Shown here: in pieces, positions 3,126 through 20,340 of the stretch
How the letters are laid out: every line of letters starts with the position of its first letter
Position numbering within the stretch: position 1 is the first letter of the stretch
DNA from: Holophaga sp.
GTDB taxonomy: Bacteria > Acidobacteriota > Holophagae > Holophagales > Holophagaceae
Reading direction: 5' to 3'
NCBI GenBank assembly: GCA_031292735.1
Contig: JARLGP010000277.1
Span: 1 to 23,936, forward strand
DNA length: 23,936 nt
The notes under the pieces: model-generated
Databases searched by the model: none
Seen by the model: the letters and a program-made list of their open reading frames with translations, nothing else
What the model was told of the DNA's origin: nothing
Program-made: the position numbers and the translations under genes

Positions 3126-3992
3126 TCACTGATAGGTGTACACCCTGACGTAGTTCACGAGCATCCGCTGGGGGAAGGTGGTGGTGCTGTCCGGCGCCCC
3201 CGGCCAGGAGCCGCCCACGGCCACGTTGAGGATCAGGAAGAAGGGCTGGTCGAACACCCACTGGCCGCCGGCGGGGAGGTCGGCCGGGGTATAGGTGGCG
3301 TAGAGGGTGTCGTCCAGGTACATCTTGATGAGGCCGGAGGACCACTCCACCGCGTACACGTGGAATGCGTCGGCCAGGTCGCCGGAGGGCAGGGCATGGC
3401 TGGTGCTGAGGCTGCCGCCGGTGAACCCGGGGCCGTGGATGGAGCCGTAGACGGTGGCCGGCTGGCTGCCGATGTTCTCCATGATGTCGATCTCGCCGCA
3501 GGCGGGCCAGCCGGCCGAGGCGAAGGTGTCGCCCAGCATCCAGAAGGCAGGCCACAGGCCCTGCCCGCGGGGGATCTGGATCCGGGCCTCGAACCGGCCG
3601 CAGGTCTGGGAGAACAGGCCCTGGGTCTTCAGGCGCGCGGAGGTGTAGCCGCAGGTGATGCCGTCGGCGCCGGTGTAGGTTTCCTTCAGGGCGGTGATGA
3701 CCAGGTTGCCGCCCTGGATCTGGGCGTTCTGGGCCAGGCTGGTGTAGGACTCCAGCTCGCCGTTGCCCCAGCCGTCGCCGCCCAGCTCGCAGGTCCACTT
3801 GGTGGGGTCGGGTCGGGTGCCGTCGGTCCCGCCGAAGTCGTCGCTCCAGGTGAGCACCCAGCCGGGGGCGGGGGTGGGAGTCGGGGTGGGTGTGGAGGTG
3901 ACGGTGGAGGTGACGGTGGAGGAGGCGCCGCCTCCGCCTCCGCAGCCCACGAGGACGGCCAGCGCGGCCAGGCATGGCAGGAGGAGACGCAT
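3126..3992 (-). CDS. GH16 beta-1,3(4)-glucanase (laminarinase) lipoprotein
   Basis: Endo-acting beta-glucanase of family GH16, predicted to cut internal beta-1,3 bonds of laminarin-type glucan. The 288-residue product has a hydrophobic leader ending in the lipobox LVGC (lipidated C17), a Gly/Ser/Thr run and a TPTPTPTP linker, then the jelly-roll domain from about residue 46. The GH16 catalytic motif GEIDIMEN is intact: nucleophile E167, D169, acid/base E172. The motif with the extra residue (ExDxxE) is the laminarinase type rather than the lichenase type. It is the last gene of the six-gene glucan operon; its ATG lies 1 base after the phosphorylase stop, so it is translationally coupled. Membrane-anchored, facing the periplasm or outside; which face is not shown by sequence. 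Confidence 0.93.
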   Translation of the reverse strand: MRLLLPCLAALAVLVGCGGGGGASSTVTSTVTSTPTPTPTPAPGWVLTWSDDFGGTDGTRPDPTKWTCELGGDGWGNGELESYTSLAQNAQIQGGNLVITALKETYTGADGITCGYTSARLKTQGLFSQTCGRFEARIQIPRGQGLWPAFWMLGDTFASAGWPACGEIDIMENIGSQPATVYGSIHGPGFTGGSLSTSHALPSGDLADAFHVYAVEWSSGLIKMYLDDTLYATYTPADLPAGGQWVFDQPFFLILNVAVGGSWPGAPDSTTTFPQRMLVNYVRVYTYQ

Positions 3993-3993
3993 C

Positions 3994-6900
3994 CTAGCCG
4001 TCCAGGCCCAGGAACACTTCCAACTGCCGCACTGCGCCCGTGCGCTCGTGGATGGCGCCGCTGGTGGCGGCGTCCAGGGCGAGCCCGCCGATGACCTGCC
4101 GGCCGTCCCCGCGGGTGACGATGATGCGCGGGGCGCCGCCCCGGTGCGCCACCACGGGCACCTGGCACAGGGTGAAGGCCAGCGTGCCCGCGGCCAGCTG
4201 GAGGGTCTGGAACTGCCCGTCCAGGTCCACGTAGCGGAAGGTGTCGGCTTTGGCGAGGAACTCCTCCAAGGGCATGATCCAGGGCTGGAAGGTGATCCTC
4301 CCGCCGCTGACCTTGACCCCCATCTCGCTGATGCGGGTAAGGATATCTTCCTTCACCTGGCCGGTCATGCCGGGCTGCTGGGCGCCGGCGAATCCGGGGG
4401 TGTGGGAGTATGGGTCAATGGGGATGGCGCCGTGCAGGGCGGGCGACTTGTGCACGCCAAGGCCTTCGCGAATCTCGTGGTAGTGGCGCTGCAGGCGCGC
4501 CAGGGTGCCGGGCTCCCCGCCGGCCGCGGCCTGCCGGACCTCGTCCACCGCCACCAGCAGCTTGGCAACCATGTGCCAGTAGATGCAGCCGAGACCCTCG
4601 TACTTGTAGAAGGTGCCGGAGCGGCCGGTGAACGACTGGTGGTCGAAGACCCGCTCGTACAGCTCCAGGAGCCGGGGACCTTCCTGCTCCGCCAGGGGGC
4701 CGAACTCGGTTCCCCGCAGGTCCTCCAGAGCGGCCTTGAGGCACTCGTCGTTGCGGAACGCCGCGTTGAAGTGGGTCTGGCCGTCCACGTCCTGCACCAC
4801 GATGCGCTGGTCCCCCCGCTCCAGGAGCGCCCGGAGCAGGGGCGACCCGGCCGCGGCCCCCTCCGGGATGTTGTTCTGCTCCAGGAAGTGCGGCAGGGGG
4901 TTGTCCGGGTAGAGGATGTAGCTGTTCTGGTCGGCCCGGTACAGCGCGCTGGCGCGTAGGGCGTCCAGCAGGACCACGGCGTCGGCGCCGGAAAGGGCGC
5001 CCGAGCTGAGGGCGGCCACCTGGCCTTCCAGCATCTCGCACAGGTGGCGCACCTCCACCCGGTCGCCGGCCACCTTCATGAGGTTGTAGGCGTGGTAGAG
5101 TCCGTCGCCGCGCCGGTTGACCCGGATGGAGTGATCCAGTTGGGCCAGGGCGGAGGCGCAGAAGGCCTGGATCCGCGCTGCCGTGAGCCGGACCCGGCGC
5201 CCGGAGAAGCCGTCCTGGTAGATTCGTGCCCGGTACCGGGTCCCGGCCTGGCCCAGGGCGTCCAGGACCTGCTTGCGCTCCCGGGGCGTGACCGGCCGGC
5301 CCGGCGCGGGCGCGACCTCCCGGAACACTTCGGCCACGGCCTCCAGCAGCTCGGCGATCTCTTCGGCGGCCTCGATCTCCGTCGCCTCCGGGGCCTGGAA
5401 CAGCTCAAGGCAGAACGCGAGGTAGCGGCGCAGGTAGTAGAGCGTGACCATGGACACGCCGTAGCCCACCAGGGCGTTGTTGGCGTCGTTCCATTCCGGG
5501 CGCTGGGTGTTCATCCAGATGCCGGCCTCGGGGACGAAGTTGGAGAGCTTGGTGAGGGCCACCAGGAGCAGCTTCTCCGCCAGATTGGCGCGAACCGGTT
5601 CGCCTCCGGCCATCAGGGCCTTGCCGTCGCTGCCCAGCTCCGCGGCCAGGGCCATGGCCCGGTCGTGCTCCACCTGTTCGAAGGTGATGGTGCTGCGGGG
5701 ATTGGCCAGCATCTCCTGGTAGGGTTTGATCCGGTAGGGGATGTTGGCGAAGGTGAACAGGCGCCGGCCCAGCAGTCCAGCCAGGGCGCTGGGGTGGTAG
5801 CGGCGTGAGGCCTCCAGCAGCTTGAGCAGGTAGATGACCTGGTGGTCGCCCCAGTAGCCGATGAAGGACCAGGGGTCGCGGGGATCGATCACTTCCCATT
5901 CGAACCCCTCCCGCATGACCCGGTAGGGGTTGTAGCCGTCGGCGGTGGAGGAGTCGGCGAACTTGAAGATCATGCTCTCGATGAAGCCGGGGTAGGAACA
6001 GCCCAGCGCTTCCCAGTTCTGGAACAGGTCGCGCCAGTTGCCTTCGAAATTGAGGATCTTGCCGCCCCGCTCGTCCTTGAGCTGGATGGAGAAGGTGTTC
6101 CAGGGGCGGCTGGGGTCGCCGTGGCGGCGGCTGAAGGTGAGCGGCAGGTACTCGTTGGCCAACCGCTCCAGGTCCGGGTCCTGCTGCCGGGCGGCCAGGT
6201 CCAGGAGCTCGCCGTGGGGCAGCGACTCGGGCAGCGCGGCCAGGAAGGCGGCGTGCCGGCCCGCAACCCGGGCGTTGGCCTTGGCCAGGAACGAGGCCAG
6301 GTCGTCCCTGGAGATCCGGTAGCCATCGTCGGGGATGCCGCCGCGCATGATGTTGAAGAGCGCGTCGGAGAAGTGCCGCCAGGTGCTCAGCGGGTCCGCG
6401 GTGGCCTGGAGGCCGTCGGCCCCGGCCACCAGCTGGACCAGGTTCCGGGTGCAGCGAGCCACGTCCTCCAGCACCAGGCCGGCCGGGTCCGGGGCGGTGT
6501 CCAGGAGCCGCGCCAGGGCGCGCACGCCGACCGCGTCCTGGCCCAGTTCGGCCACGATCAGCCAGTCTTTCCGGGTCCCGGGCCGCAGGTCGACGGTGGC
6601 GTTCAGCAGGTAGGCGCCGCGCTGGCCTCGCACGTCGGACTCTTCCTGGAGCGGCGCGCCCATCCGGAAGGCCTCCAGCTGGGCGGTGGAGAGCAGGCGC
6701 CGGGCGGGTTCCAGCCCGGCGGACCAGGCCAGGTTCACGCGCAGCGCCTCGCTGGGCTCGGCCTTGTCCACCGGGATGGAACTGAGCCGGAACAGTGCCA
6801 GGCTGGTGCCGGGCACCCGCTCGGTGCGCTTGTAGCCGTCGGCCAGGGTGCTGTACTCCGCCTGGAAGCGCCGCTCCACCCCGAACGGCAGCACGTTCTG

Positions 6901-7437
6901 GAAACCATCCACCAGGTCGACGCTGACCGGGTCCGCGCCCTCGTTGTGGAGGGCGGACTGGCGCACGAAGCCGAAGCGCTCGCTGTTCAGCCACCCGTAG
7001 CGGAAGCGGAGGCCCAGGTCCTGGTTGCGCTCCTCGAACAGGATCTTGTTGCCGTAGACGCTCTTGTAGAGGCTGCGGACGACCCGGTAGAGGCCGTCGT
7101 AGCGCTGGGAGAAGGGCTCCCACAGGGAGGTCCGGCCCCGGCGGCGGACCCGCAGGAGGGTCTTGGCGCCGGTCTGGTCCTGGCTGTCGTGGATGCGGTC
7201 GTCGGTGCAGTAGGGGAACAGGGCGTGGTCCGGGTCCTTGCGGCCCGCGGTCAGGGCGCCGTTGCTGGAGATGAAGAGCCAGTGGTCCGAGTCGCTCACC
7301 AGGCTCATCAGGAAGGGCGGCATGGTGTCGTAGTTGACCAGGTGGTAGAAGGGCTCGCCCGCGATCTCGACAATGGACCCGGCCGCGGGCTGGGCCGGCG
7401 GCCGCAAGGGGGAATCGGAAACGAACGTGTGGCTCAT
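3994..7437 (-). CDS. Large GH94-clan phosphorylase, probable beta-1,3-oligoglucan phosphorylase (GH149/GH161-like)
   Basis: Predicted cytoplasmic inverting phosphorylase that would split beta-1,3-gluco-oligosaccharides with phosphate to give alpha-glucose 1-phosphate and a shortened chain. The 1147-residue product has no signal peptide. Its N-terminal ~300 residues look like the beta-sandwich domain of GH94-type enzymes, followed by an (alpha/alpha)6-barrel region with conserved-looking blocks (EGNWRDLFQNWEAL near residue 465; GYWGDHQ; PEWNDANNALVG). The aspartate of WND (D651) matches in context the catalytic acid of GH94 cellobiose phosphorylases (motif DWND). The size and the neighbouring GH16, GH17 and GH81 genes favour the beta-1,3-glucan phosphorylase families GH149 or GH161 over GH94 cellobiose phosphorylase; I cannot choose between the two by eye. 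It starts 12 bases after the transporter stop, with AAGGA as ribosome site. Specificity is inferred from context. Confidence 0.8.
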   Translation of the reverse strand: MSHTFVSDSPLRPPAQPAAGSIVEIAGEPFYHLVNYDTMPPFLMSLVSDSDHWLFISSNGALTAGRKDPDHALFPYCTDDRIHDSQDQTGAKTLLRVRRRGRTSLWEPFSQRYDGLYRVVRSLYKSVYGNKILFEERNQDLGLRFRYGWLNSERFGFVRQSALHNEGADPVSVDLVDGFQNVLPFGVERRFQAEYSTLADGYKRTERVPGTSLALFRLSSIPVDKAEPSEALRVNLAWSAGLEPARRLLSTAQLEAFRMGAPLQEESDVRGQRGAYLLNATVDLRPGTRKDWLIVAELGQDAVGVRALARLLDTAPDPAGLVLEDVARCTRNLVQLVAGADGLQATADPLSTWRHFSDALFNIMRGGIPDDGYRISRDDLASFLAKANARVAGRHAAFLAALPESLPHGELLDLAARQQDPDLERLANEYLPLTFSRRHGDPSRPWNTFSIQLKDERGGKILNFEGNWRDLFQNWEALGCSYPGFIESMIFKFADSSTADGYNPYRVMREGFEWEVIDPRDPWSFIGYWGDHQVIYLLKLLEASRRYHPSALAGLLGRRLFTFANIPYRIKPYQEMLANPRSTITFEQVEHDRAMALAAELGSDGKALMAGGEPVRANLAEKLLLVALTKLSNFVPEAGIWMNTQRPEWNDANNALVGYGVSMVTLYYLRRYLAFCLELFQAPEATEIEAAEEIAELLEAVAEVFREVAPAPGRPVTPRERKQVLDALGQAGTRYRARIYQDGFSGRRVRLTAARIQAFCASALAQLDHSIRVNRRGDGLYHAYNLMKVAGDRVEVRHLCEMLEGQVAALSSGALSGADAVVLLDALRASALYRADQNSYILYPDNPLPHFLEQNNIPEGAAAGSPLLRALLERGDQRIVVQDVDGQTHFNAAFRNDECLKAALEDLRGTEFGPLAEQEGPRLLELYERVFDHQSFTGRSGTFYKYEGLGCIYWHMVAKLLVAVDEVRQAAAGGEPGTLARLQRHYHEIREGLGVHKSPALHGAIPIDPYSHTPGFAGAQQPGMTGQVKEDILTRISEMGVKVSGGRITFQPWIMPLEEFLAKADTFRYVDLDGQFQTLQLAAGTLAFTLCQVPVVAHRGGAPRIIVTRGDGRQVIGGLALDAATSGAIHERTGAVRQLEVFLGLDG

Positions 7438-7449
7438 GGCTGGGGTCCT

Positions 7450-8940
7450 TCAGGAGCTGGATTCCGTGGGCACGAGCTTGCGCCGCTTGAGATCCTTCTC
7501 GATCCGGACCATCAGCTCGTCGTTCAGGGGGTAGGCGTTCATCAGCAGGGCGGCCAATACCAGCATGGCTCCGGGGATGAGGCTCATGCAGAGCCGGATG
7601 CCCAGCAGCGAGGTGCCGGACTGTTCGACGTTGGCCACGTAGCCGAACCGGGTGAGCAGCAGGCCCGTGAGCCAGGCGCCGAAGGCCAGGCCGATCTTCG
7701 TGCCGAAGATGGCCGAGGCGAAGACCAGGCCGGTGTTCCGGCGGCCCAGGCGCCACTCCGCGTCGTCGGCGGTGTCGGCGAACATGGCCCACACCAGGGG
7801 GGAGTTGAAGCCGATGACGAAGCTGCCGGCGATCTGCAGGGTGAACATGAGCCCGATGTCCCCGGGCCCGGCGAACCAGAATCCGGCCACCACCAGGCCG
7901 CCGCCGCCGATGGCGGCCATGAACAGGGCCTTCTTGTCGAACCGCCTGGCGATGGCCGGGGTGAAGACCACGGCCACCAGGAAGGCCAGGGCGTTGGCGA
8001 CCAGGAAGGGCCCCAGCAGGTCGCTGCGGTGGACGAAGTATTTGAAGTAGTAGACGGAGATGGAGCCCCGGAGCACGAAGGAGGTGATCATGACGATCAT
8101 GACCCCCAGCATCACGACGAACGGACGGCTGGCAGCCATGTCCCGCACGTCCCGCCTGAGGTCGGGGCTCTGGTTTCCCGGGGGCGTGACCCGCTCGCGG
8201 GTGATCAGGAAGCACAGGGTCAGCAGGAGCAGCGCCAGCGCCCCGTAGAGCACCATGGTCATCTGCCAGCCCTTGGCCGGGTCGGACGGCAGCGCCAGGA
8301 GGTCCTTGGACAGGAACCAGCGGAGCCAGCCGGCGGGATGGGCCAGGAACGGGTGCAGGCCGCGGGCCGCGGCGTCCATGCCGAACCAGTGGGCCAGGCT
8401 GGGCGTGCAGTACTGGACGAACACCGCCACGCTGAAGGCCCCCACGAAGCGGAACGAGGCCAGGGAGGTGCGCTCCACGGAGTTGGGGGTCATCACCCCC
8501 AGCAGGGCGCTGTAGGGGATGTTCACCGCGGTGTACATCAGCATCAGGAGGCAGTAGGTCACGTAGGCGTACAGCAGCTTGCCGCCGCCGCCCAGGTGGG
8601 GCGTGGTGAAGGTGAACACCCCGGCCACCACCAGGGGCAGCCCGAACCAGACCAGGTAGGGGCGGAAATGGCCCCAGCGGGTCACGGTCCGGTCCGCGAT
8701 GGTGCCCATCACCGGGTCCGCCACCGCGTCCAGGATGCGGGTGACCAGCATCATGGTGCCCACGGCGCCGGCGGAGATGCCGAAGACGTCGGTGTAGAAG
8801 AAGATGATGAAGAATTCGAAGGACTTCCAGTAGAAGTTGGAGGCCGCGTCGCCCAGGGCGTAGCCGGCCTTCTCGCCGAAGGCGAGCCGGTCCTCGATGG
8901 GGTCCTTCTCCTGCCCGGTCACGCGTACGGTCGTCTTCAT
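7450..8940 (-). CDS. GPH-family sugar:cation symporter (MFS superfamily)
   Basis: Inner-membrane glycoside-pentoside-hexuronide type symporter, predicted to import gluco-oligosaccharides with Na+ or H+. The 496-residue product shows about 12 hydrophobic segments and typical N-terminal GPH features: the EKAGYALGDAASNFYW block near residues 23-38, the DAVADPVMGTIADRT loop, then RWGHFRPYL. The length fits the family (about 450-500). A charged tail (RIEKDLKRRK) follows the last membrane segment. The ATG overlaps the epimerase stop as ATGA, which fixes the start and couples translation. The neighbours (secreted glucanases, cytoplasmic phosphorylase) suggest beta-1,3-gluco-oligosaccharides as substrate; the sequence alone does not prove this. 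Confidence 0.9.
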   Translation of the reverse strand: MKTTVRVTGQEKDPIEDRLAFGEKAGYALGDAASNFYWKSFEFFIIFFYTDVFGISAGAVGTMMLVTRILDAVADPVMGTIADRTVTRWGHFRPYLVWFGLPLVVAGVFTFTTPHLGGGGKLLYAYVTYCLLMLMYTAVNIPYSALLGVMTPNSVERTSLASFRFVGAFSVAVFVQYCTPSLAHWFGMDAAARGLHPFLAHPAGWLRWFLSKDLLALPSDPAKGWQMTMVLYGALALLLLTLCFLITRERVTPPGNQSPDLRRDVRDMAASRPFVVMLGVMIVMITSFVLRGSISVYYFKYFVHRSDLLGPFLVANALAFLVAVVFTPAIARRFDKKALFMAAIGGGGLVVAGFWFAGPGDIGLMFTLQIAGSFVIGFNSPLVWAMFADTADDAEWRLGRRNTGLVFASAIFGTKIGLAFGAWLTGLLLTRFGYVANVEQSGTSLLGIRLCMSLIPGAMLVLAALLMNAYPLNDELMVRIEKDLKRRKLVPTESSS

Positions 8941-9890
8941 GATAGTTCCAGCGTGACGGACCACTGGGCGGTCTGGCCCGGCTGGACCGTCTGGAACTGC
9001 CCCCAGGATTCGACCGCGTCCGCCAGGGAATCCGGGGCCCCGCTGGCGGGTTCCAGGGCCACGTGGTGGAAGCCGCAGTGACCGCGGTTGATCCAGATGC
9101 CCAGGAAGGGCAGGAGGGCGGCATCCCAGCTCAGTTCCAGGCGGTCCCCGGCCCGGTCGTTCACCACCGCGGCGCGGCCGCGGGTGAGCGGGCCGGCGAA
9201 GGCCTTGACGCACCCGCCGGGCATTCCTGGCACCTGGCACTGGTCCAGGCGAACCCCGGGAAACGGCTCGGGATAGTCCCACCAGTCGCCCTGGGCGATG
9301 TTTGCGCCCAGGCCCCCGTTCAGGCGCAGCCTGCGCACTTCCACGGGCAGTTCCAGACGGTCGCCGGGTTCGATGGCCATGAGCGGATGCAGGCTCCAGA
9401 GGAACGGCTCCGCCGCGTCTCCGGTGTTGCGCAGGCTGTAGTCGAACACGAAGGCCCCGTCCGGGCCCACCCGGATGGACCGGGAGAAGACCAGGGGGGA
9501 CACGGTGAGGGGAACCGAGGCCCGCAGCCGGTGGATCGCCAGGGCGCCGGGGTCCAGGGCCCAGTCCTGGAACCACACTTCGCCGTGGTCCGGGAGGTCC
9601 CGGCCGCGCACCCGGCATGGAGCCACCGTGGGCACGCATTCGTCGATGCCGGCCTGGGGGCTCGAGCCGAACGGGTCCCCGGCCCGGCTGGCCCACAGCC
9701 AGTCCGGGCGGGGCTGGTGCCAGCACCACTCCCGGCCGGTCCTGCGGCTGCGCAGGCTGACGATCCGGCCGCCAAGCTCGGGCACCATCCGCAGTTCGGC
9801 GGCGCTGCTGCGCAGCCCCCTCACGGTGAAGCCCTGCAGGGGGGCGACGATCGCTTCGGTTTCGTCCATGCGGGCCGCCTGCGCGTTCAC
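8937..9890 (-). CDS. Aldose 1-epimerase-like (galactose mutarotase superfamily) protein
   Basis: Beta-sandwich sugar mutarotase-like protein, presumed cytoplasmic, 317 residues from the GTG at 9890. Visible family features are GIDECVPT near residue 81, LPDHGEVWFQDW with H102, and SLHPLMAIEPGD with H168; the two histidines lie where mutarotases have their catalytic pair. Such enzymes interconvert alpha and beta anomers of glucose or short oligosaccharides, a useful step because phosphorolysis yields specific anomers. The GTG overlaps the GH17 stop as GTGA and is preferred for that reason; the ATG at residue 8 (9869) is an alternative. The stop overlaps the transporter ATG. It is more distant from classical GalM, so the substrate is unknown. 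Confidence 0.78.
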   Translation of the reverse strand: MNAQAARMDETEAIVAPLQGFTVRGLRSSAAELRMVPELGGRIVSLRSRRTGREWCWHQPRPDWLWASRAGDPFGSSPQAGIDECVPTVAPCRVRGRDLPDHGEVWFQDWALDPGALAIHRLRASVPLTVSPLVFSRSIRVGPDGAFVFDYSLRNTGDAAEPFLWSLHPLMAIEPGDRLELPVEVRRLRLNGGLGANIAQGDWWDYPEPFPGVRLDQCQVPGMPGGCVKAFAGPLTRGRAAVVNDRAGDRLELSWDAALLPFLGIWINRGHCGFHHVALEPASGAPDSLADAVESWGQFQTVQPGQTAQWSVTLELS

Positions 9891-11611: not shown

Positions 11612-11629
11612 GGATTCACTCCTTGGGGA

Positions 11630-12991
11630 TCAGAGGACGTAGAGGACACCGATGAGAATCCAGTTGCCGTTGCGGGAGACCCGCGAGTCCACCCCGGTGA
11701 AGGCCGAGTTGGTCGACATGGACATGGGCGAGGGGCCCAGCTTCCCGTAATGCACCAGACCCACCTCGCCGTAGCACACCAGCCCGTGGCCGAAGTCGTA
11801 CTGCACACCGGCCACATCGAAGTTGGCCCAGTTGTTCTGGCCGCGTTCGGAGGGGTTGGCGGTGGTGGCCTTGCCCAGGATCTCCGCGGCCAGCCAGGTG
11901 GACCACGGGCCCCAGCGGTGCAGCACGGCGCCGAAGCCGTCGGTCTCGCTGGCCGAGTAGCCGGGGTTGGAAACCCCGTTGCTGGTGCCGTTCCAGTTGA
12001 CGTTGAACATGTCGTTCCATTGGGCCGGGGGCCCGGCTACGGTGATCACCGCGTGCGCGCCGCTCCACTGGTTGAAGCGGATGCCGCCGGAGTACTGCCA
12101 GTGCTTGTCGTAGTCGTAGCGCGCCATGATCATCAGGATGCCCTGGCCGGCGCCGCCCACCACGCTGTCGTCCCGGGAGAAGGGGGTGAGGCCGGTGAAC
12201 GGGCCCTGGCCCCAGGCTTGCGGGTTGCCGTTGCGGGTGGCCTGGCCGATGACGTCCACCACCAGGCCGGCGTTGTGGTACTGCCCGTAGAATTCGAAGA
12301 ACCGCGGCTTGTGGGTCTTGAAGGCGGTGTTGCCCTCGTCGTAGGTGGCTTCCAGGACCAGGTCGCCCTTCAGCACGTCGAAGGTCCGGGAGGTGTAGCG
12401 GACCGCCTTGGTGAGCAGGCCGTAGCCGGCGCCGCTCTGGGCCCACTCGTCGGCCAGGCCCACGTTGGTGCCGTAGGGGTAGTCGGCCACGCTCCAGCCT
12501 CGGGCGACCATCTTGCCCACGGCCAGGCGGCCGTAGTCCTCGTGGCTGATGGCGACGTTCTCCTCGTAGATGAAGCCGGGGATGTCGGCGGTGGTGGGGT
12601 CGCCGTCCCCGCCGCGCCAGCGCTGGCTCACCATGCCGGACAGCTTGAAACCGCCCCCTATGTCGAACTTGGCGCCCAGCCAGGGCTGGAACAGCCAGAC
12701 ATGGGTGGGTTCGGTCTTGAGCGGGGCGCCGGCCACCAGGTTATCCCCCCAGTTCTCCTGCTTGGTTCCGCTGGGGCTGACCTGGATGTTGTTGGCCTGG
12801 TTGCTGTACCGGCCGTCCTCGATCTTGGCGAAGGCGTTCAGGGAGAAGGGGCCGTAGCTGAGGGCCTCGGCCCGGGCGGTGGTGCCCAGAACCAGCACGG
12901 CAAGCCCCAGGCCGGCCCGCAATCCCCGGCATGCGGCCCGGGAACGGACGGTGGGAAAGATTCGGCGTACGGCGGCGGGTCGGGTATGCAT
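11630..12991 (-). CDS. Outer-membrane beta-barrel porin, probable oligosaccharide channel
   Basis: Predicted outer-membrane porin, first gene of the glucan operon. The 453-residue product begins with a long Arg-rich signal peptide (hydrophobic core GLGLAVLVLG, likely cleavage ARA|EAL after residue 41). The mature part is rich in Gly, Asn, Trp and Tyr with alternating amphipathic strands, and has no TonB box or plug domain. It ends ILIGVLYVL rather than in the usual terminal Phe or Trp. The ATG at 12991 is chosen because GGAAGG lies 6 bases upstream and the signal peptide begins there; an in-frame extension to 13114 has no such support. I recognise a general Gram-negative porin pattern, not a named family. 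The role in passing glucan oligosaccharides is inferred from its operon. Confidence 0.82.
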   Translation of the reverse strand: MHTRPAAVRRIFPTVRSRAACRGLRAGLGLAVLVLGTTARAEALSYGPFSLNAFAKIEDGRYSNQANNIQVSPSGTKQENWGDNLVAGAPLKTEPTHVWLFQPWLGAKFDIGGGFKLSGMVSQRWRGGDGDPTTADIPGFIYEENVAISHEDYGRLAVGKMVARGWSVADYPYGTNVGLADEWAQSGAGYGLLTKAVRYTSRTFDVLKGDLVLEATYDEGNTAFKTHKPRFFEFYGQYHNAGLVVDVIGQATRNGNPQAWGQGPFTGLTPFSRDDSVVGGAGQGILMIMARYDYDKHWQYSGGIRFNQWSGAHAVITVAGPPAQWNDMFNVNWNGTSNGVSNPGYSASETDGFGAVLHRWGPWSTWLAAEILGKATTANPSERGQNNWANFDVAGVQYDFGHGLVCYGEVGLVHYGKLGPSPMSMSTNSAFTGVDSRVSRNGNWILIGVLYVL

Positions 12992-13152
12992 GTTGAACCT
13001 TCCATTCAGATTCAAACGGGGGTGGAAGAACTCGCTGGCGGACGGCCAGGCCGATTCTGGGCGTGCAATGCTTGGAAAACCCCAGGCACGGGGCGGTACT
13101 GCAACCAGGCTCAAGGAGGACTGTTAAAGGGTGAATCGGCAAAATTGGGTTG

Positions 13153-13192
13153 TATATGGTCTTTTTTCATTCTATCTGGTGATTTTTCGTGA
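13153..13192 (+). promoter_or_regulatory. Candidate tandem operator for the XylR-like regulator (porin/GH81 region)
   Basis: Two direct copies, 20 bp apart: TATATGGTCTTTTTTCATTC at 13153 and TATCTGGTGATTTTTCGTGA at 13173, identical at 14 of 20 positions. They sit in a conspicuously AT-rich patch between the divergent porin operon and GH81. The core ATGGTCTTTTTT recurs upstream of the regulator gene. Tandem half-sites two helical turns apart are typical of AraC/XylR activators. The element lies about 28 bp upstream of a TATGAT -10 box for GH81. Binding by the local regulator is inferred. Confidence 0.6.
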
Positions 13193-13219
13193 GAGGAAAC
13201 CTTTTGCTTCCAGTCCACC

Positions 13220-13225
13220 TATGAT
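13220..13225 (+). promoter_or_regulatory. Candidate -10 box of the GH81 promoter
   Basis: TATGAT matches the sigma-70 -10 consensus at 5 of 6 positions and is followed by the GH81 ATG at 13251, leaving a leader of about 20 bases. No good -35 hexamer is seen 17 bp upstream, as expected for an activator-dependent promoter with the tandem operator just upstream. The same TATGATCC octamer occurs before the regulator gene. Confidence 0.4.
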
Positions 13226-13250
13226 CCGGGGTGCGACCACGGGGGGGAAG

Positions 13251-15548
13251 ATGCTGCAACGCATTCACAGGACTTCGGCGACCTTTACCGGACGGTTCGC
13301 GGGGAGCGTGCTCATGCTCGGCCTGCTGCTGCCGGCCCGTGCGCAGACCGTCAAGGCCGGGGCGGGGGCCTACTGGCTGAGCAGCCAGGGCGGCGGGGAC
13401 AGGGACGTCCCGCCCGCGCCCATGCGCACCGAGGCGCTGCTCAAGACCGCGGCCCAGACCAACCAGTGGTACTCGACGCTCCTGTTCAGCGCCAGGCCCG
13501 AGGCCATCTACGCCCTGCCGCTCAGCTTCAAGGCCGGGCCGGCGGGCCTGGAATTGGCCCTGCCGGTCCGGACCGTGGTCCCCACCGAGCGGAAGGACAC
13601 CGAGATCCACTATCCGCACCGGAACCCCATGGTGATCGCCCCGGTGGCCTTCGAGCCCGGCCCGGCCCGCCTGGCCAAGGCCGGGGACTGGTCCATCGAC
13701 ATCGACATGTCCCGCGGGGCGGACCGCATGGTGGCGACCATCGCCCACGGCTGCCCCTACGCCTACCTGCAGGTGTCCCGCGGCGACGTGCGGGTGACGC
13801 TGCCGGCGGAGGGCAGTCGGACCGATGGCGGTGGGGACGCACGCGTGCTGGCCGTCCAGGCCGGCGGGACGGCCTTCGCGCTGTTCGGGCCCACCGGCGT
13901 GCGCTGGGAGCAGGCTTCCGGCCGGCAATGGATCGCCCACATGCCGGCGGACCGCGGCTACCTGTCCGCCGCTGCCCTCCCCGACGACCAGCCGGCGACG
14001 CTCAAGCTGTTCGCCCAGCACGCCTACGCCTTCCTCCAGGACACCCGGGCGGACGGGCGCTACGATTCCGCCGCCAGCACCGTGGAGACCAGCTTCCAGG
14101 CCACCGTGCGGACCATGGAGGGGGATCCGGCCACGCCGCTGCTGGGGCTCTACCCCCACCAGTGGTTCGGCAACGCCTCGCTGCGGGGCCGGCTGGGGCC
14201 CGGCTACGACACGCTGCGCGGCCGGATCCAGCTTCTGGCCGCCGCCGGGTTCACCACCCGGGCCGCCTACCACGGGTTCGTGCCCTTCTGGCCGGGGGTG
14301 ACGGATCCCAAGGACGCCTCGGAACTGCGCTCGCTGCTCAAGACCGACCTGCGCAAGGCCCGGGCCATGATGCTGGAGATCGGCGACGGGCCTTACTGGC
14401 AAGGCAAGGGCCTGCAGCGCATCGCCCAGCTGATGGCGGTGGCCGAGCAGCAGGGCGACCTGGAGGCGCGCGGCCAGTTGCTCAAGCTGCTGGAAGACCG
14501 GGCCGAGTCCTGGTTCTCGGGGAAGGAACGCAAGACCTACTTCCGCTATTCCAGGACCCTGGGCACGGTGCTCGGCTACCCGGAGGAGTATTTCTCGGTG
14601 GCCCAGGTGAACGACCATCACTTCCACTACGGCTACTGGATCAGGGCCTGCGCCGAGATCGCGCTGCGCGACCCGGCCTGGGCGGCCAAGGACAGGTGGG
14701 GCGCCATGGTGGACCTGCTGGTGGCCGACATCGCCACGCCGGTGCGCGGGGGCTCCGAGTTCCCGTTCCTGCGCAACTTCGACTCCTACGAAAGCCATTC
14801 CTGGGCCTCGGGCATCGGTCTGGGAGCCTTCGGCAACAACCAGGAAGCCTCGTCCGAGGCCATCAACGCCTGGGCCGGGCTCATCCTCTGGGGCGAGGCC
14901 ACCGGCGACCGCGGGCTGCGGGACCTGGGCGTCCGGCTCTACACCAGCGAGGTGGAGGGCGCCCAGAACTACTGGTTCGACCTGAACCACCAGGTGCTGG
15001 CCCCCGAATACCGCAACACCGAGGTGAGCATGCTGTTCGGCGCCAAGTACGCGCACAACACCTGGTGGACCGACGAGCCGCGCCAGATCAAGGGCATCAA
15101 CCTGCTGCCCATCACCACCGCGTCGCTCTACCTGGGGCGCGACCCGGAGTTCGTGAAGCGCAGCCTGGCCGAACTGTCCGTCCAGAGCGCGGCCTACGCC
15201 GCCCGCGGCCATCGCCCCAGCCCGCCGGACATCTGGCAGGACGTGTTCGCGGAGTACCTGGCCCTGGCCGACCCGGCCGAAGCCCTGGCCCGCTGGAACC
15301 GCTGGGGCGCGGTGGAACTGGGCGATACCCGCTCGCACACCCTTCACTGGATGCTGAGCCTGCAGCGCATGGGCATTCCCGATGACTCGGTCTCGGCCGA
15401 CACGCCGCTGTTCTCCGTCTTCCGCAAACCGAACGGTACCAAGACCTATCTGGCCTACAACGCGGGCCCGGCGGCCAGGGCGGTGCACTTCAGCGACGGA
15501 GTGCAGTTGACCGTGGCGCCCCATGCGCTGGGGGAGAAGACCCCTTGA
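13251..15548 (+). CDS. GH81 endo-beta-1,3-glucanase, secreted
   Basis: Inverting endo-beta-1,3-glucanase of family GH81, acting on long beta-1,3-glucan chains outside the cytoplasm. The 765-residue product starts with a signal peptide (core GSVLMLGLLL, likely cleavage ARA|QTV near residue 31), not a lipobox. Family motifs are clear: TNQWYSTLLF near the N-terminus, NDHHFHYGYWI with the catalytic acid D455, ESHSWASG, and NQEASSEAINAW with E532 and E536 as the candidate base residues. The ATG at 13251 is chosen because GGGGAAG precedes it and it begins the signal peptide; an ATG at 13221 and a GTG at 13131 lie in frame but overlap the predicted promoter and operator. It is transcribed divergently from the porin operon and sits alone in its unit. 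Confidence 0.94.
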   Translation: MLQRIHRTSATFTGRFAGSVLMLGLLLPARAQTVKAGAGAYWLSSQGGGDRDVPPAPMRTEALLKTAAQTNQWYSTLLFSARPEAIYALPLSFKAGPAGLELALPVRTVVPTERKDTEIHYPHRNPMVIAPVAFEPGPARLAKAGDWSIDIDMSRGADRMVATIAHGCPYAYLQVSRGDVRVTLPAEGSRTDGGGDARVLAVQAGGTAFALFGPTGVRWEQASGRQWIAHMPADRGYLSAAALPDDQPATLKLFAQHAYAFLQDTRADGRYDSAASTVETSFQATVRTMEGDPATPLLGLYPHQWFGNASLRGRLGPGYDTLRGRIQLLAAAGFTTRAAYHGFVPFWPGVTDPKDASELRSLLKTDLRKARAMMLEIGDGPYWQGKGLQRIAQLMAVAEQQGDLEARGQLLKLLEDRAESWFSGKERKTYFRYSRTLGTVLGYPEEYFSVAQVNDHHFHYGYWIRACAEIALRDPAWAAKDRWGAMVDLLVADIATPVRGGSEFPFLRNFDSYESHSWASGIGLGAFGNNQEASSEAINAWAGLILWGEATGDRGLRDLGVRLYTSEVEGAQNYWFDLNHQVLAPEYRNTEVSMLFGAKYAHNTWWTDEPRQIKGINLLPITTASLYLGRDPEFVKRSLAELSVQSAAYAARGHRPSPPDIWQDVFAEYLALADPAEALARWNRWGAVELGDTRSHTLHWMLSLQRMGIPDDSVSADTPLFSVFRKPNGTKTYLAYNAGPAARAVHFSDGVQLTVAPHALGEKTP

Positions 15549-15671
15549 CGCCGGTCCGGGAATGCCAGGGCGAAGGCCGTGGCCTCCTATCCCGGATTCC
15601 GGTGCCCTGTTGAAATCAGGCGATTCTATAGTCCTTTTTCGCACTTCCGGGCCAGGTCGCGCAGATGGCTT
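15549..15671. other. Convergent spacer between GH81 and regulator, with one operator-like half-site
   Basis: Short gap between two gene ends, no gene seen. It contains TATAGTCCTTTTTC at 15627-15640, which matches the operator core TATGGTCTTTTTTC at 12 of 14 positions but has no second copy 20 bp away. No clear stem-loop terminator with a T run was found for either gene. Confidence 0.35.
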
Positions 15672-16850
15672 TCAGCGCCCGGTCACGCCCGAGCGGTACA
15701 GGACCGGCGTGGTCTTGGTCTCGCGCTTGAAGAACCGGCAGAAGTAGGCGGCGGACAGGAACCCGCACTCCCGGGCCACCTGCTCGATGGTCATGGTGGA
15801 GTTCTCCAGGAGGCGCATCCCCCGGTTGAGCCGCACCCGCAGCATTTCCCCGGCCACCGGGCGCCCCAGGTGCTTCTTGAACAGGTTGTCCAGGGTGGAG
15901 CGGGAGCAGTTGACCAGATCGCAGACCTGCTCCACGGAGATCCCCCGGCAGGCGCGGTCGCGGATGATCCGGGACGCGGCCAGGACGATGGGGTCCTGGG
16001 CCGTGGTGATGTCCGTGGACTGGCGCTCGACGATCCGTGAAGGCGGCATGTTGTGGATCCCGGGCTCCACCGGCTCGCCGTTCAGCATCCGGTTCAGCAT
16101 CTCCGCGGCCATCTGCCCGATCCCCTCGTTGTCCGGGGCGATGCTGGTCAGGGTGGGCCGGCAGAGGCGGCAGAGGATGTCGTCGTTATCCACGCCGATC
16201 ACCGAGACCTCGGACGGCATGGCGATCCCCATGTCCCGGCAGGCGGTGATGACCTGCTGGCCGCGGATGTCGTTGCAGGCCAGGATGGCCACAGGCTTGG
16301 TCAACTGGGTGAGCCAAATGGCCAGGGTCGGCTCGTATTCCAGGCCCCGGAGTTCCCGGAATTGGTGCTTGATGGTTTCGGACGCCTTGGCCGGCGGGGT
16401 GTAGACGCTCACGGTGTGGCCCCGGGCCTGGAGGATCCGGCAGAAGGCCGTCGAACGCCGGTCCGAAAAGAAGATGGTGGGGTATCCCGCGAACGCGAAA
16501 TGGATGAAGCCGGCCTGGCTGAAGAAATCCGCGGCCACCTGGGCCACGCTGTCGGGGTCGGTGTCGAACACGGGCGAACCCGGGCAGTTGCCCTCCCCCT
16601 GCACGTCGACGATGGGCACTCCCAGGGACTTGATCTGGCTCCCCAGTTCCGGGGTGGAGATGAAGCCGATGATCCCGTCGATGTGGCCCCGCTTGAGCCA
16701 GTGGGGAAGTTTCATGAACTCGGCCCGCTCGTACGGGAAGATGACCCAGTTCTCGTGGTCCAGGGCGTAGTTGGCCACGCCCTTGCAAATGCCTCGGCTG
16801 TAGCCGCCGGAGGCAGGAACGAGCAAAGCGATGTGGCGATTGCTGACCAT
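15672..16850 (-). CDS. XylR-like transcriptional regulator (LacI-type sensor plus AraC-type HTH)
   Basis: DNA-binding regulator, 392 residues, the same length and layout as E. coli XylR. Residues ~5-285 are a periplasmic-binding-protein-like sugar sensor (RHIALLVPASGGYSRGICKG; DGIIGFIS; VSVIGVDNDDILCRLCRPTLTSI). Residues ~300-392 are a double helix-turn-helix AraC domain (ISVEQVCDLVNCSRSTLDNLFKKH, then MTIEQVARECGFLSAAYFCRFFKRET). Its neighbours point to a beta-glucan breakdown product as inducer rather than xylose, so I give no symbol. The ATG at 16850 is fixed by homology of the N-terminus, but no Shine-Dalgarno precedes it. A TATGAT box sits only 9-14 bases upstream, so the mRNA may be leaderless. 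It likely controls the porin operon, GH81 and the repeat lipoprotein. Confidence 0.9.
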   Translation of the reverse strand: MVSNRHIALLVPASGGYSRGICKGVANYALDHENWVIFPYERAEFMKLPHWLKRGHIDGIIGFISTPELGSQIKSLGVPIVDVQGEGNCPGSPVFDTDPDSVAQVAADFFSQAGFIHFAFAGYPTIFFSDRRSTAFCRILQARGHTVSVYTPPAKASETIKHQFRELRGLEYEPTLAIWLTQLTKPVAILACNDIRGQQVITACRDMGIAMPSEVSVIGVDNDDILCRLCRPTLTSIAPDNEGIGQMAAEMLNRMLNGEPVEPGIHNMPPSRIVERQSTDITTAQDPIVLAASRIIRDRACRGISVEQVCDLVNCSRSTLDNLFKKHLGRPVAGEMLRVRLNRGMRLLENSTMTIEQVARECGFLSAAYFCRFFKRETKTTPVLYRSGVTGR

Positions 16851-16858
16851 AAAAAAGG

Positions 16859-16864
16859 ATCATA
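16859..16864 (-). promoter_or_regulatory. Candidate -10 box of the regulator gene
   Basis: TATGAT read on the minus strand, 9-14 bases before the regulator ATG. The implied start of transcription falls at or within a few bases of the ATG. The same TATGATCC string is the proposed -10 of GH81. It overlaps an operator-like string (ATGATCCTTTTTT), which could mean autoregulation. Confidence 0.35.
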
Positions 16865-16910
16865 CCCCGGTCCGGGAAGACCACCCTGCAAATCGGCCAG
16901 GGGCGCACCG

Positions 16911-16950
16911 GAACCAAACTTGACCTGGAATAATCAAAAAAGACCATTAC
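16911..16950 (-). promoter_or_regulatory. Candidate tandem operator between regulator and repeat lipoprotein
   Basis: Read on the minus strand, GTAATGGTCTTTTTTGATTA (16950-16931) is followed directly by TTCCAGGTCAAGTTTGGTTC (16930-16911), with their GGTC boxes exactly 20 bp apart. The first copy matches the first copy of the porin/GH81 operator at 15 of 20 positions, including 12 contiguous bases. The second copy is weak (10 of 20 to its partner). It lies centrally in the regulator/lipoprotein divergent region, so it could serve both genes. Confidence 0.55.
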
Positions 16951-17010
16951 ATTCCCAGTTTTTAGATTGCACCCTTAATTTAATCCTCATTGAACACCAT
17001 CGCATCAGGA

Positions 17011-17032
17011 CGGTCCCTTGAAAGAGGGACCG
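17011..17032 (+). promoter_or_regulatory. Perfect inverted repeat in the leader of the repeat lipoprotein
   Basis: CGGTCCCT and AGGGACCG form an 8-bp perfect stem around the 6-base loop TGAAAG. It is about 60 bp upstream of the lipoprotein ATG, downstream of a possible TTTAAT -10 box at 16979-16984. No T run follows, so it is not a standard terminator. It could stabilise the mRNA 5' end or be a dimeric protein-binding site. Confidence 0.4.
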
Positions 17033-17094
17033 CTCTTCCGCATGCCCCATAAACCAAATACGGTTGAAAAGCCGTCCCTAACGAAGGAGTTCGT

Positions 17095-19206
17095 ATGACG
17101 CCCAATCGAACCCGAGGGGTGCTGGTAACGCTGACTCTCCTGGCGGCCGCGCTGCCTCCCATGCTGATCGGCTGCAGCGGTTCGTCCTCAGCGCCCGCCA
17201 CGGCCAGCTACAACCCGGCCCCCGCGGTGGTCATCAGCGGCACCAGCAGCACGCCGGCCACCGGCCCGGTGACCCTGACCTTCACCTTCAGCGAAGCCAT
17301 GACGTCCTTCCCCGCCTCCGCCGTGACGGTGACCGGCGGCACGGCCGCCACCAGAACCACCGAGGTCAACGCGAACCAGTACACCCTGGTCGTGACCCCT
17401 CCCTCCACCGGCTCCGGCACCATGCGGATCAGCGTCGCCGCCGGCGCCTTCACCGATGCCGCGGGCGTGGCGAACACGGCCGCGGCGAGCGTCTCCCAGA
17501 CCTACAACACCACACCCTTGACCTACACCGTCCTGGACTTCAATTCCACCCTGCCCTCGGGCGAAGCCTACAACGAGAACGACTTCAACGGCGACACCAC
17601 GACCCTGGTGAGCACCGGCTATCCCACCACCGGCCTGCCCGCCGGCACCGGCCCCGTGGTGGCCCAGATCGTCACGCCCGCGGTGACCGGCGGCTCGGCC
17701 GTCTACAACGGCACCTACCTGGGCGTCGGCTACGAGAACTCGGTGGGCGCGCTGCCGTTCTTCGCTTCCACTTCGGCCACGACCCCGCAGGCCACCAAGA
17801 TGTCCGTGGTGCTCTACTCCCCCGTCGCGGGGGTGGACATCAAGCTGAAGATCGAGAACGCCTCCAATTCGGCCCAGTCGGTGGAGACCGACCAGACCGC
17901 GGCCCTGGGCTGGCAGACCCTGGTCTTCGACTTCGGACAGCCCGCGACGGGCACCGCGGCCCTCAACGCGGCCTACACCTACAACTCCGCGATCATCTTC
18001 CCGGATTTCGGGGCCACCACCGCCACCTCGGCGACCTACTACGTCGGGCCCATCACCTTCATCGGCGAATCGGCCGCGTCGGCGCCGCCGCTCTCCCAGC
18101 CGGGATCGGAAGCCTACACGATCCTCGACTTCAACGCCACCTTGCCCTCGGGCGAAGCCTACAACTACCTCGACTTCAATTATGACGTCACGACCCTGGT
18201 GAGCACCGGCTATCCCGCCACCGGCCTGCCCACCGGCACCGGCCCGGTGGTGGCCCAGATCGCCGCGCCTGCGGTGAGTGGCGGCTCGGCCGTCTACAAC
18301 GGCACCTACCTGGGCGTCGGCTACGAGAACTCGGTGGGCGCGCTGCCGTTCTTCGCTTCCACTTCGGCCACGACCCCGCAGGCCACCCAGGTCTCCATGG
18401 TGCTCTACGCTCCCGTGGCGGGGGTGGACATCAAGCTGAAGATCCAGAACGCCGACAATACGTCCCAGTCGGTGGAGACCGACCAGACCACGGCCCAGGG
18501 CTGGCAGACCCTCGTCTTCGACTTCGCAACGCCCGCCACCGGCACCGCGGCCCTCAACGCGGCCTACACCTACAACTCCCCGATCCTCTTCCCGAATTTC
18601 GGGGCGACCAGCGCTTCGGGCGAGACCTACTTCGTCGGCCCGCTCACCTTCATCGGCGCCTCCGCGCCCCTGTCGTCTCCGCTCGCCACCCCCGCCGCCG
18701 GCAACACCCCGACCGCCGGCGCCCCCGCGCCGACCTTGACCGCCGGCAGCTACATCATGCTCTGGAACAGCTCCAACACCTACTCCACCACCACGATCGG
18801 CAACTGGAATCCAAGCTGGGGCCAGAGCGGCGCCATCACCTCGTTCCCGGCCGGCTCGGCAACGTTCTGGCTCATGGACCTGATCAACTACCAGGGCATC
18901 GACATCTCCGGACCCAATGGGGACCCCACGGACGCGGCTCCCGCTCCCCTCTCCATCAACGGGAAGCTCCACCTGCACATCAGCTACTGGACTCCGGACG
19001 GCACCGCGTTCAGCTTCTACCCGGTCGACGCCACCAATACCCAGCAAAGCAGCGCGGTCTCCTACGGATCCCTCGTCCAGAACACCTGGACCGACCTGGA
19101 GCTCAACTGCAATCTCTCGGGGTTCGATCCGACCACCCTGCGCCAGCTCGTCTTCAGTACCACGGCGACTGAACACATCTACCTGGACAACATCTACTTC
19201 CACTAA
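17095..19206 (+). CDS. Surface lipoprotein with Ig-like domain and tandem carbohydrate-binding-like repeats (putative beta-glucan-binding protein)
   Basis: 703-residue non-catalytic lipoprotein. The leader ends in LIGC (lipidated C27). Residues ~43-135 are a bacterial Ig-like domain (TFTFSEAM, VTVTGGT, AAGAFTDAAGVANTA). Residues ~144-323 and ~341-520 are two copies of one beta-sandwich module (VLDFNSTLPSGEAYN; VDIKLKIENA; SVETDQT; LGWQTLVFDF; GTAALNAAYTYN), a pattern I associate with modules attached to bacterial laminarinases. A Pro/Ala/Thr linker leads to a third beta-rich domain, residues ~552-703, ending HIYLDNIYFH like the GH17 tail. No glycosidase motif is seen. The ribosome site AAGGAG (17084-17089) fixes the ATG. 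It is divergent from the regulator, sharing its candidate operator. A role in holding beta-glucan at the cell surface is inferred. Confidence 0.75.
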   Translation: MTPNRTRGVLVTLTLLAAALPPMLIGCSGSSSAPATASYNPAPAVVISGTSSTPATGPVTLTFTFSEAMTSFPASAVTVTGGTAATRTTEVNANQYTLVVTPPSTGSGTMRISVAAGAFTDAAGVANTAAASVSQTYNTTPLTYTVLDFNSTLPSGEAYNENDFNGDTTTLVSTGYPTTGLPAGTGPVVAQIVTPAVTGGSAVYNGTYLGVGYENSVGALPFFASTSATTPQATKMSVVLYSPVAGVDIKLKIENASNSAQSVETDQTAALGWQTLVFDFGQPATGTAALNAAYTYNSAIIFPDFGATTATSATYYVGPITFIGESAASAPPLSQPGSEAYTILDFNATLPSGEAYNYLDFNYDVTTLVSTGYPATGLPTGTGPVVAQIAAPAVSGGSAVYNGTYLGVGYENSVGALPFFASTSATTPQATQVSMVLYAPVAGVDIKLKIQNADNTSQSVETDQTTAQGWQTLVFDFATPATGTAALNAAYTYNSPILFPNFGATSASGETYFVGPLTFIGASAPLSSPLATPAAGNTPTAGAPAPTLTAGSYIMLWNSSNTYSTTTIGNWNPSWGQSGAITSFPAGSATFWLMDLINYQGIDISGPNGDPTDAAPAPLSINGKLHLHISYWTPDGTAFSFYPVDATNTQQSSAVSYGSLVQNTWTDLELNCNLSGFDPTTLRQLVFSTTATEHIYLDNIYFH
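17524..18655 (+). repeat. Two in-frame tandem repeats, 591-bp period, with a 108-bp perfectly identical block
   Basis: Copy 1 is about 17524-18064 and copy 2 about 18115-18655, aligned throughout with an offset of 591 bp (197 codons) and no visible insertion or deletion. Positions 17689-17796 and 18280-18387 are identical at every base, including synonymous sites, while flanking parts differ at scattered positions. This indicates a recent duplication or local gene conversion. Confidence 0.9.
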
Positions 19207-19314: not shown

Positions 19315-20340
19315 CTAGATGGACCCCATGGTCTTGCCGGCGCAGCGCAGGTCCTGGCAGGCGCGGATCACCCGGTCGGCCATGCTCTGCTCGGCCTTCT
19401 TCATGTACGAGCGGGGGTCGTAGACCTTCTTGTTGCCCACTTCGCCGTCCACCTTCAGCACGCCGTCGTAGTTCTTGATGATGTGGTCGGCGATGGCCCG
19501 GGTGAAGGCGTACTGGGTGTCGGTATCGACGTTCATCTTGATCACGCCGTAGTCCAGGGTCTCGTGGATCTCCTGGAGGCTGGAGCCGGAACCGCCGTGG
19601 AACACCAGGTCCGCCGTCTCGCCGTGGCAGGCGGCCCGGATGGCGTCCTGGCCGGCCTTGAGGATCCCGGGCTTCAGCACCACGTTGCCGGGCTTGTAGA
19701 CGCCGTGGACGTTGCCGAAGGTGGCGGCCAGCAGGTAGCGGCCGATGGGGGCCAGGGCCTGGTGCACCGCCACCATGTCCTCCGGGGTGGTGTAGAGCTT
19801 CTCCTTGCCCAGGTGGGTGGTGTCGTGCCCGTCCTCTTCGCCGCCCACCACGCCGATTTCCACTTCCAGGATGATCTCGCTGGCGGCGCACCGCTTGAGC
19901 AGCTCCACGGAACGCTTGATGTTCTCCCCCAGGGGCAGCTCGGAGCCGTCGAACATATGCGCGGTGAACAGGTTGGGCAGGCCGGCCGCCCGCCGCCGCT
20001 CGGTTTCCGCGATGAGCGGAAGCACATAGCTTTCCAGCACCTTGGGCTGGCAGTGGTCGGTGTGCAGGGCCACGTTGATCTCGTAGTTGGCGGCCATCTG
20101 GTGCACGTAGTTGGCCAGGGCGATGCCGCCCTGGGCCATGCTCTTCACGCCCAGCCCGGACATGAATTCGGCCCCGCCGGTGGAAAGCTGGATGATGCCG
20201 TCCGCCTTGGCGGTCTTCAGGCCCAGCAGCACCGCGTTGGCGGTCTCGGTGGAGGTGACGTTGAAGGCGGGGTAGGCGTACTTCTCCTGTTTGGCCCGCT
20301 CCAGCATCTTGACGTATTGTTGGGCATTTACGACCGGCAT
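19315..20340 (-). CDS. fbaA: Class II fructose-bisphosphate aldolase (zinc-dependent)
   Basis: Cytoplasmic glycolytic enzyme that reversibly splits fructose 1,6-bisphosphate into dihydroxyacetone phosphate and glyceraldehyde 3-phosphate. The 341-residue product shows the class II metal and catalytic set: HTDH (catalytic D95, zinc ligand H96), EVEIGVVGGEEDG (residues 159-171), FGNVHG (H212), FHGGSGSS (H248) and NVDTDTQ (270-276). The length fits the IIA-type E. coli-like group. GAGAGGA lies upstream of the ATG at 20340. It is divergent from a class I aldolase gene with 183 bp between them, and convergent with the repeat lipoprotein. It would take carbon from glucan-derived glucose, but nothing shows co-regulation. 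Confidence 0.95.
   Translation of the reverse strand: MPVVNAQQYVKMLERAKQEKYAYPAFNVTSTETANAVLLGLKTAKADGIIQLSTGGAEFMSGLGVKSMAQGGIALANYVHQMAANYEINVALHTDHCQPKVLESYVLPLIAETERRRAAGLPNLFTAHMFDGSELPLGENIKRSVELLKRCAASEIILEVEIGVVGGEEDGHDTTHLGKEKLYTTPEDMVAVHQALAPIGRYLLAATFGNVHGVYKPGNVVLKPGILKAGQDAIRAACHGETADLVFHGGSGSSLQEIHETLDYGVIKMNVDTDTQYAFTRAIADHIIKNYDGVLKVDGEVGNKKVYDPRSYMKKAEQSMADRVIRACQDLRCAGKTMGSI

Follow-up and report, generated by a model that had tools for sequence, protein, structure and literature searches.

The window analysed here is contig JARLGP010000277.1 of the Holophaga sp. assembly GCA_031292735.1, 23,936 nucleotides (nt) in full. Between positions 3126 and 19206 it carries a 16-kb block with genes for predicted glucanases of the glycoside hydrolase (GH) families 16, 17 and 81, a porin, a GPH-family symporter, a GH149 phosphorylase, a mutarotase-like protein, a XylR-like regulator and a repeat-bearing lipoprotein. 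We read this block, with a probability of roughly 0.7, as one regulon for the utilization of beta-1,3-glucan, a polysaccharide of fungi and algae, in Acidobacteriota of or near the Geothrix family. Family and fold evidence confirmed every component named in a preliminary description of this DNA, including its epimerase, and in agreement with it the block contains no SusC/SusD pair and no visible beta-glucosidase gene; in those open reading frames of the window that a Pfam scan covered, neither SusD nor TonB receptor domains were found. The features are as follows.

3126–3992, minus strand: GH16 endo-glucanase lipoprotein, lipobox LVGC (PF00722, 79.9 bits, cut-off 22; lipobox pattern)
3994–7437, minus strand: GH149 beta-1,3-glucan phosphorylase, 1147 amino acids (aa), no export signal seen (NF058639, 1553.9 bits; PDB 6hq6; active-site motifs)
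7450–8940, minus strand: GPH-family cation symporter (PF13347), 496 aa (TIGR00792, 377.2 bits, cut-off 231.35; Pfam)
8937–9890, minus strand: mutarotase-like protein, aldose 1-epimerase fold (structure model, Foldseek, invariant His, His and Glu)
9887–11611, minus strand: GH17 lipoprotein, lipobox LASC, with a C-terminal extension (PF00332, 30.3 bits, cut-off 28.2; PDB 6fcg, E 6.6e-34)
11630–12991, minus strand: 16-stranded outer-membrane porin, start uncertain (up to 13114) (structure model, matches to solved porins, homologues)
13150–13169, plus strand: operator-like motif TTGTATATGGTCTTTTTTCA in the porin/GH81 gap (38.6 bits, matrix built without the window)
13251–15548, plus strand: GH81 endo-beta-1,3-glucanase, signal peptide recognized by eye (PF17652, 182 bits)
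15672–16850, minus strand: XylR-like regulator, a periplasmic-binding-protein-like sensor with an AraC-type helix-turn-helix (HTH) (PF13377, PF12833)
16934–16953, minus strand: weaker form of the operator-like motif, one base shorter, in the regulator/lipoprotein gap (20.7 bits)
17095–19206, plus strand: lipoprotein, lipobox LIGC, with a Big_12 domain, two similar repeats and a C-terminal module (PF19078)

Gene families of the block

Read along the minus strand, the genes follow one another as porin, GH17, mutarotase-like protein, GPH symporter, GH149 and GH16, and since they overlap or are spaced by at most 20 bases, they likely form one operon. The GH81 gene is divergent from the porin gene, as is the XylR-like gene from that of the repeat lipoprotein. 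Third-position GC contents of 0.90–0.97 across the nine frames support their being coding. GH81, a family of beta-1,3-glucanases, is recognized by its C-terminal domain (PF17652, cut-off 25.6), the N-terminal PF03639 scoring just 10.8, under its cut-off; the gene has candidate starts at 13251, at 13221 and at an earlier in-frame GTG at 13131. In the regulator both domains pass their cut-offs and the N-terminal XylR domain PF22177 falls short (24.4 against 27); "XylR-like" is used here as the name of an architecture only. The block is flanked on the left by SbcCD-type genes and on the right by two aldolase-type genes, a class II fructose-bisphosphate aldolase and a DeoC/LacD-type aldolase, which are divergent and adjoin it at 19315–21444.

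The phosphorylase stands well above the cut-off of the NCBIfam GH149 equivalog (NF058639, cut-off 1150), and the structure of Pro_7066 (PDB 6hq6) aligns with its residues 22–1142 at 1181 bits. The RD, WND, Glu and His active-site residues named for Pro_7066 in the accessible part of PMC6771811 were all found in the window protein by alignment and motif check; phosphorolysis of beta-1,3-gluco-oligosaccharides is its predicted activity. The preliminary description had spoken of a GH94-clan phosphorylase and of GH149/GH161; both the family model and 6hq6 cover the protein at nearly full length and assign it to GH149. Membership of GH161 or GH94 was rejected, a GH161 structure and a cellobiose phosphorylase structure giving partial matches only. 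According to the available parts of PMC6484121 and of Kuhaudomlarp et al. 2018 (PMC5827456), GH149 enzymes use acceptors of a degree of polymerization of 1 and longer; a beta-glucosidase would therefore be unnecessary in principle, and one enzyme could reach glucose. The former source, in the part available, also describes GH149 and GH161 enzymes as tolerating acceptors of other linkage.

The porin has no Pfam match, even at an E-value of 1, and a profile search of solved structures by sequence returned chance matches only. Its structure model is a 16-stranded barrel that matches solved porins, with the Vibrio chitoporin VhChiP on top at a sequence identity of 11–12%. Among the best 120 of 901 homologues, the named ones come from a Burkholderiaceae metagenome-assembled genome (MAG) (60%), Leptothrix sp. 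BB-4 (59%) and a Pseudomonadota MAG (58%). A search of 398 sampled Pseudomonadota genomes at E 1e-20 gave no match, a result that shows nothing by itself as the search had no positive control, and plasmids gave none either.

The model of the mutarotase-like protein (pLDDT 95) has mutarotases as its top Foldseek matches, and the alignment shows His95, His161 and Glu273 to be invariant, which we take, by analogy with GalM, to be the catalytic residues. The protein belongs to no NCBIfam family and scores 24 bits against DUF4432, under the cut-off of 32.5. It has no match in 80 GH149 loci from other taxa (the best 80 of 591 candidates), GH81 occurring in four of these. The two repeats of the lipoprotein are visible in tblastn matches and were not reported by a blastp self-comparison; against solved structures the protein gave one chance match. 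Modules resembling it lie in 12 of the 80 loci from other taxa (fetched stretches, E 1e-5), a count made without background control. Its company makes a role as a glucan binder possible, as a guess.

Porin-type and receptor-type loci

The gene sets closest to that of the window come from the Geothrix family (Holophagaceae), which was sampled with 77 genomes, including Geothrix sp. SG200. In its class II aldolase the window shares 91% identity with one of them and 76–84% with 34 others (35/77 matched), and it therefore probably belongs in or close to this family. GH149 was found in 15 of the 77 genomes and the porin in six, all six among the GH149 genomes and with both genes on one contig in each (hypergeometric P 2e-5, relatedness ignored). 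In a sample of 396 genomes of the phylum, 14 carried GH149 and two the porin, both of them porin-type members of the Geothrix family.

Six genomes of the family (G205, G083, G420, G422, G423 and G417), hereafter porin-type, carry the GH149 gene set of the window. Identities to the window proteins are 69–74% for GH81, 63–72% for the porin, 55–61% for the long GH17, 64–72% for the mutarotase-like protein, 76–80% for GPH and 66–72% for GH149 (one partial); recurring in six relatives at 55–80% protein identity, the gene set is more than a chance assembly. The gene order of the window is kept in four of the six loci and parts of it are inverted in G423 and G417, where the XylR-like gene (67–68%) lies on a separate contig and adjoins a lipoprotein gene of the window's kind. 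The fetched porin-type stretches yielded no GH16; the gene adjoins the XylR-like gene in G004 (Geothrix sp. SG200), G433, G435, G104 and G397.

Eight further GH149 genomes (G385, G251, G104, G397, G435, G409, G004 and G433, the last covered through two contig stretches) are of a receptor type; the fifteenth, G412, was left out, its GH149 being split over two contigs. Their loci (L120–L126 and L135) have in common with the window the XylR-like gene, the operator-like motif described below, the lipoprotein, GPH (76–79% identity to the window) and GH149 (58–65%), and differ in having a short GH17 (27–34%) and a TonB-dependent receptor (about 1141 aa) accompanied by two small proteins of outer-membrane type, one of 255 aa and the other a small barrel of 195 aa. 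Pfam recognizes CarboxypepD_reg and Plug domains in the receptor of Geothrix sp. SG200. The porin is present in none of the eight genomes, and the GH81 and mutarotase-like genes are absent from the seven fetched receptor-type stretches. Conversely, a tblastn search of the window and the fetched porin-type stretches gave no match to the sister receptor. SusD (PF07980) was found in 0 of 13 relatives.

At L125 (G409, 7706–11126) the TonB receptor matches as two overlapping pieces in different frames and may be interrupted or mis-assembled, and in another acidobacterial genome (G350:C18:5355-8716; L094, L095) GH149 itself matches in two adjacent pieces, as if split or mis-assembled. Two contigs labeled as a Brockarchaeota MAG (L002) and a Demequina MAG (L003) carry GH149 at 60% identity, the Demequina copy falling within the Geothrix-family clade of the GH149 tree.

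The shared operator-like motif

The intergenic stretches of these loci share a 20-nt element of the approximate form TTGTAwATGGTCTTTTTTCG. A matrix was built from 14 of the porin/GH81 and XylR-side sites of the relatives, the window being left out, and it scores the copy between the porin and GH81 genes of the window at 38.6 bits. Simulation of 200 windows with the same dinucleotide composition yielded a single match of at least 20 bits and none of 28, and the best score in GH149 loci from other taxa was 26.4 (79 loci, all of the 80 except L004, that of Geothrix sp. SG200). All six porin-type loci have the motif between porin and GH81, and it also adjoins the XylR-like gene in each of the six porin-type and eight receptor-type genomes examined. 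As a pattern, TGTAWATGRTCTTTTTT, it occurs in the 77 genomes in six exact copies, all near GH149, and in 18 copies when one mismatch is permitted, 15 of them within 11 kb of GH149. The remaining three are found in G433, on a short contig with XylR-like and GH16 genes that is probably part of the same locus, in G430, which lacks GH149, ahead of a similar receptor operon, and in G435, at a second place in the genome. GH149 is present in 13 of the 14 genomes with a near-exact copy (P 8e-12, relatedness ignored). The XylR-like protein may be what binds this motif.

A further copy of 20.0 bits was seen in the window at 15622–15641 (plus strand), in the convergent gap between the GH81 and XylR-like genes, and receptor-type relatives have a comparably weak copy between their XylR-like and GH16 genes; the convergent-gap copy may be a remnant of a relocated GH16. 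Two loci in genomes without GH149 also carry the motif. In L127 (G379, 5535–17852) a XylR-like gene (64%) has two motif copies around it and is flanked by a similar receptor operon and, opposite, by GH3, GH30 and GH5 genes; this may be a sister regulon for a branched beta-glucan. In L128 (G430, 4196–9241; the genome lacks GH149) a motif copy is followed by the receptor operon noted above and then by a GH2-type glycosidase gene.

Proposed uptake route and relation to known systems

In the pathway that we propose, the GH16 and GH17 lipoproteins and a secreted GH81 would cleave beta-1,3-glucan extracellularly or within the outer envelope, with the repeat lipoprotein probably holding the polymer. 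Short laminari-oligosaccharides would diffuse into the periplasm via the dedicated 16-stranded porin, which takes the place of the TonB-dependent receptor of sister loci, and the GPH symporter would move them across the inner membrane. GH149 would phosphorolyse them step by step, yielding alpha-glucose 1-phosphate and in the end glucose, and the mutarotase-like protein would balance the anomers. Control would be exerted by the XylR-like regulator via the 20-nt operator, both in the gap from which the porin and GH81 genes diverge and next to the regulator gene itself. Conserved gene order and the common motif strengthen the case for a beta-1,3-glucan locus, and entry by porin and cation symporter with cleavage by phosphate, as put forward in the preliminary description, is the likeliest reading; the saving of ATP that was attached to it we can only infer.

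The end of the degradation was approached by a survey of GH1 and GH3, the beta-glucosidase families covered, in the relatives. GH1 is absent from the six porin-type genomes (E 1e-5) and present in 3/13 relatives overall, all three receptor-type, and the porin-type genomes hold 0, 1, 1, 1, 1 and 2 GH3 genes. The 13 relatives have 14 GH3 open frames between them, nine of which measure 339–360 aa, a size similar to that of the house-keeping NagZ. With no GH1 and at most two GH3 genes in these genomes, GH149 may complete the degradation of the oligosaccharides itself.

As to how the two locus types arose, it is an even bet, in our estimate, that a regulon keeping its regulator, operator, symporter and phosphorylase gave up a TonB-driven receptor and took on a porin specific for sugars, along with a secreted GH81 and a mutarotase. 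Such an exchange would amount to a third outer-membrane strategy for GH149 loci, in which no TonB energy is spent on short beta-1,3-oligosaccharides and bond energy is conserved by phosphorolysis.

Several observations weigh against the overall reading of the block as one beta-1,3-glucan regulon with a dedicated porin. The porin model also fits general porins, those of Burkholderia and Neisseria, within 1 Z unit of the chitoporin, and with the two practically tied the fold does not by itself establish sugar specificity. Other TonB-dependent receptors are encoded in 6/6 porin-type genomes, with 4–11 PF00593 matches each at E 1e-5, a threshold at which PF00593 misses the sister receptor in Geothrix sp. 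SG200. The regulator-side motif copy of the window is weak, its 20.7 bits barely exceeding those of the convergent-gap copy. When two mismatches are allowed the pattern becomes unspecific (34/77 genomes), and since it was derived from these very loci the genome counts test specificity only. Finally, the GH149 and GPH trees are compatible with a single exchange and support it poorly (54/81 and 37/47).

The first two of these points would favor a porin that is an unspecific diffusion channel, with glucan fragments entering mainly via a TonB-dependent receptor encoded elsewhere. We hold this to be unlikely: in the family the porin occurs only together with GH149 (6/6), it has its intergenic region and motif in common with GH81, and the sister receptor is without a match in the fetched porin-type regions. 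Moreover, the locus contigs of the five draft genomes are free of PF00593 receptors, and in G205, a single-contig genome, about 110 kb separate the locus from the nearest one.

That the porin-type set is the older, the receptor type having arisen from it when a TonB receptor was gained, appears somewhat less probable again, even though neither the GH149 nor the GPH tree gives a supported root for the two types. Against it, GH149 clusters with TonB receptors are described in other classes (type II, in the accessible part of PMC5827456), receptor operons of the same kind without GH149 occur in two family genomes (G379 and G430), and the porin has no match at E 1e-5 in the 80 GH149 loci from other taxa. 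Replacement of the receptor by the porin is the direction that we prefer.

A main substrate other than beta-1,3-glucan, for example mixed-linkage beta-1,3-1,4-glucan with beta-1,3 activity as secondary, is very improbable in view of the GH149 equivalog score and the GH81 family, although EglC, a beta-1,3-1,4-glycanase, is the best NCBIfam match of the GH16 (96.7 bits, far from the cut-off of 700) and the phosphorylase families tolerate acceptors of other linkage.

The two sister types form a natural experiment, in which the same regulator, inner transporter and phosphorylase work with either an active receptor or a passive porin; their comparison would show what a polysaccharide-degrading cell gains from an energized outer-membrane step, and under what conditions it can dispense with one. 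GH149 loci are now also placed in Acidobacteriota, with a concrete operator offered for testing; for GH149 the accessible part of PMC5827456 names Bacteroidetes, Proteobacteria and Euglenophyta.

That the block may represent an under-described locus type, as the preliminary description suggested, stands for the porin in the receptor's place and not for the rest, SusCD-free GH149 clusters having been published in 2018. Types I and II of that work are already without SusCD, and the absence of SusCD is therefore not the novelty; the better-supported one is that porin and TonB-type receptor alternate within one family, apparently in one regulon. No porin-type GH149 locus was found in the literature searched, where the one paper to mention both GH149 and a porin, PMC6246565, has that porin in a nitrogen-metabolism cluster.

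With the chitoporin VhChiP the window porin has the predicted 16-stranded fold in common, the substrate of VhChiP being chitin. The available part of PMC5827456 also describes Bacteroidetes polysaccharide utilization loci (PULs) or carbohydrate-active enzyme clusters with GH149. A Bacteroidota laminarin PUL such as that of Formosa (PMC6246565, as far as accessible) likewise unites GH16, GH17 and GH149 in one locus, but relies on SusC/SusD-type uptake and GH3/GH30 beta-glucosidases, whereas the window has a porin and its block no beta-glucosidase gene. According to the same part of PMC5827456, type I resembles the window in its dedicated inner-membrane transporter, its LacI- or AraC-type regulator and the lack of SusCD, and differs by importing through an ATP-binding cassette transporter, without exported glucanases or an outer-membrane transporter. 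The nearest known cluster is type II of the Alteromonadales, described there with a TonB-dependent receptor, GH16, GH17, a PF13347 transporter and two-component regulators. GH149, GH16, GH17, the PF13347 inner-membrane transporter and the absence of SusD are common to both, yet where type II has its TonB receptor and a histidine kinase with a response regulator, the window has a porin and an XylR-like regulator of PBP_3 and AraC HTH domains, joined by GH81 and the mutarotase-like protein.

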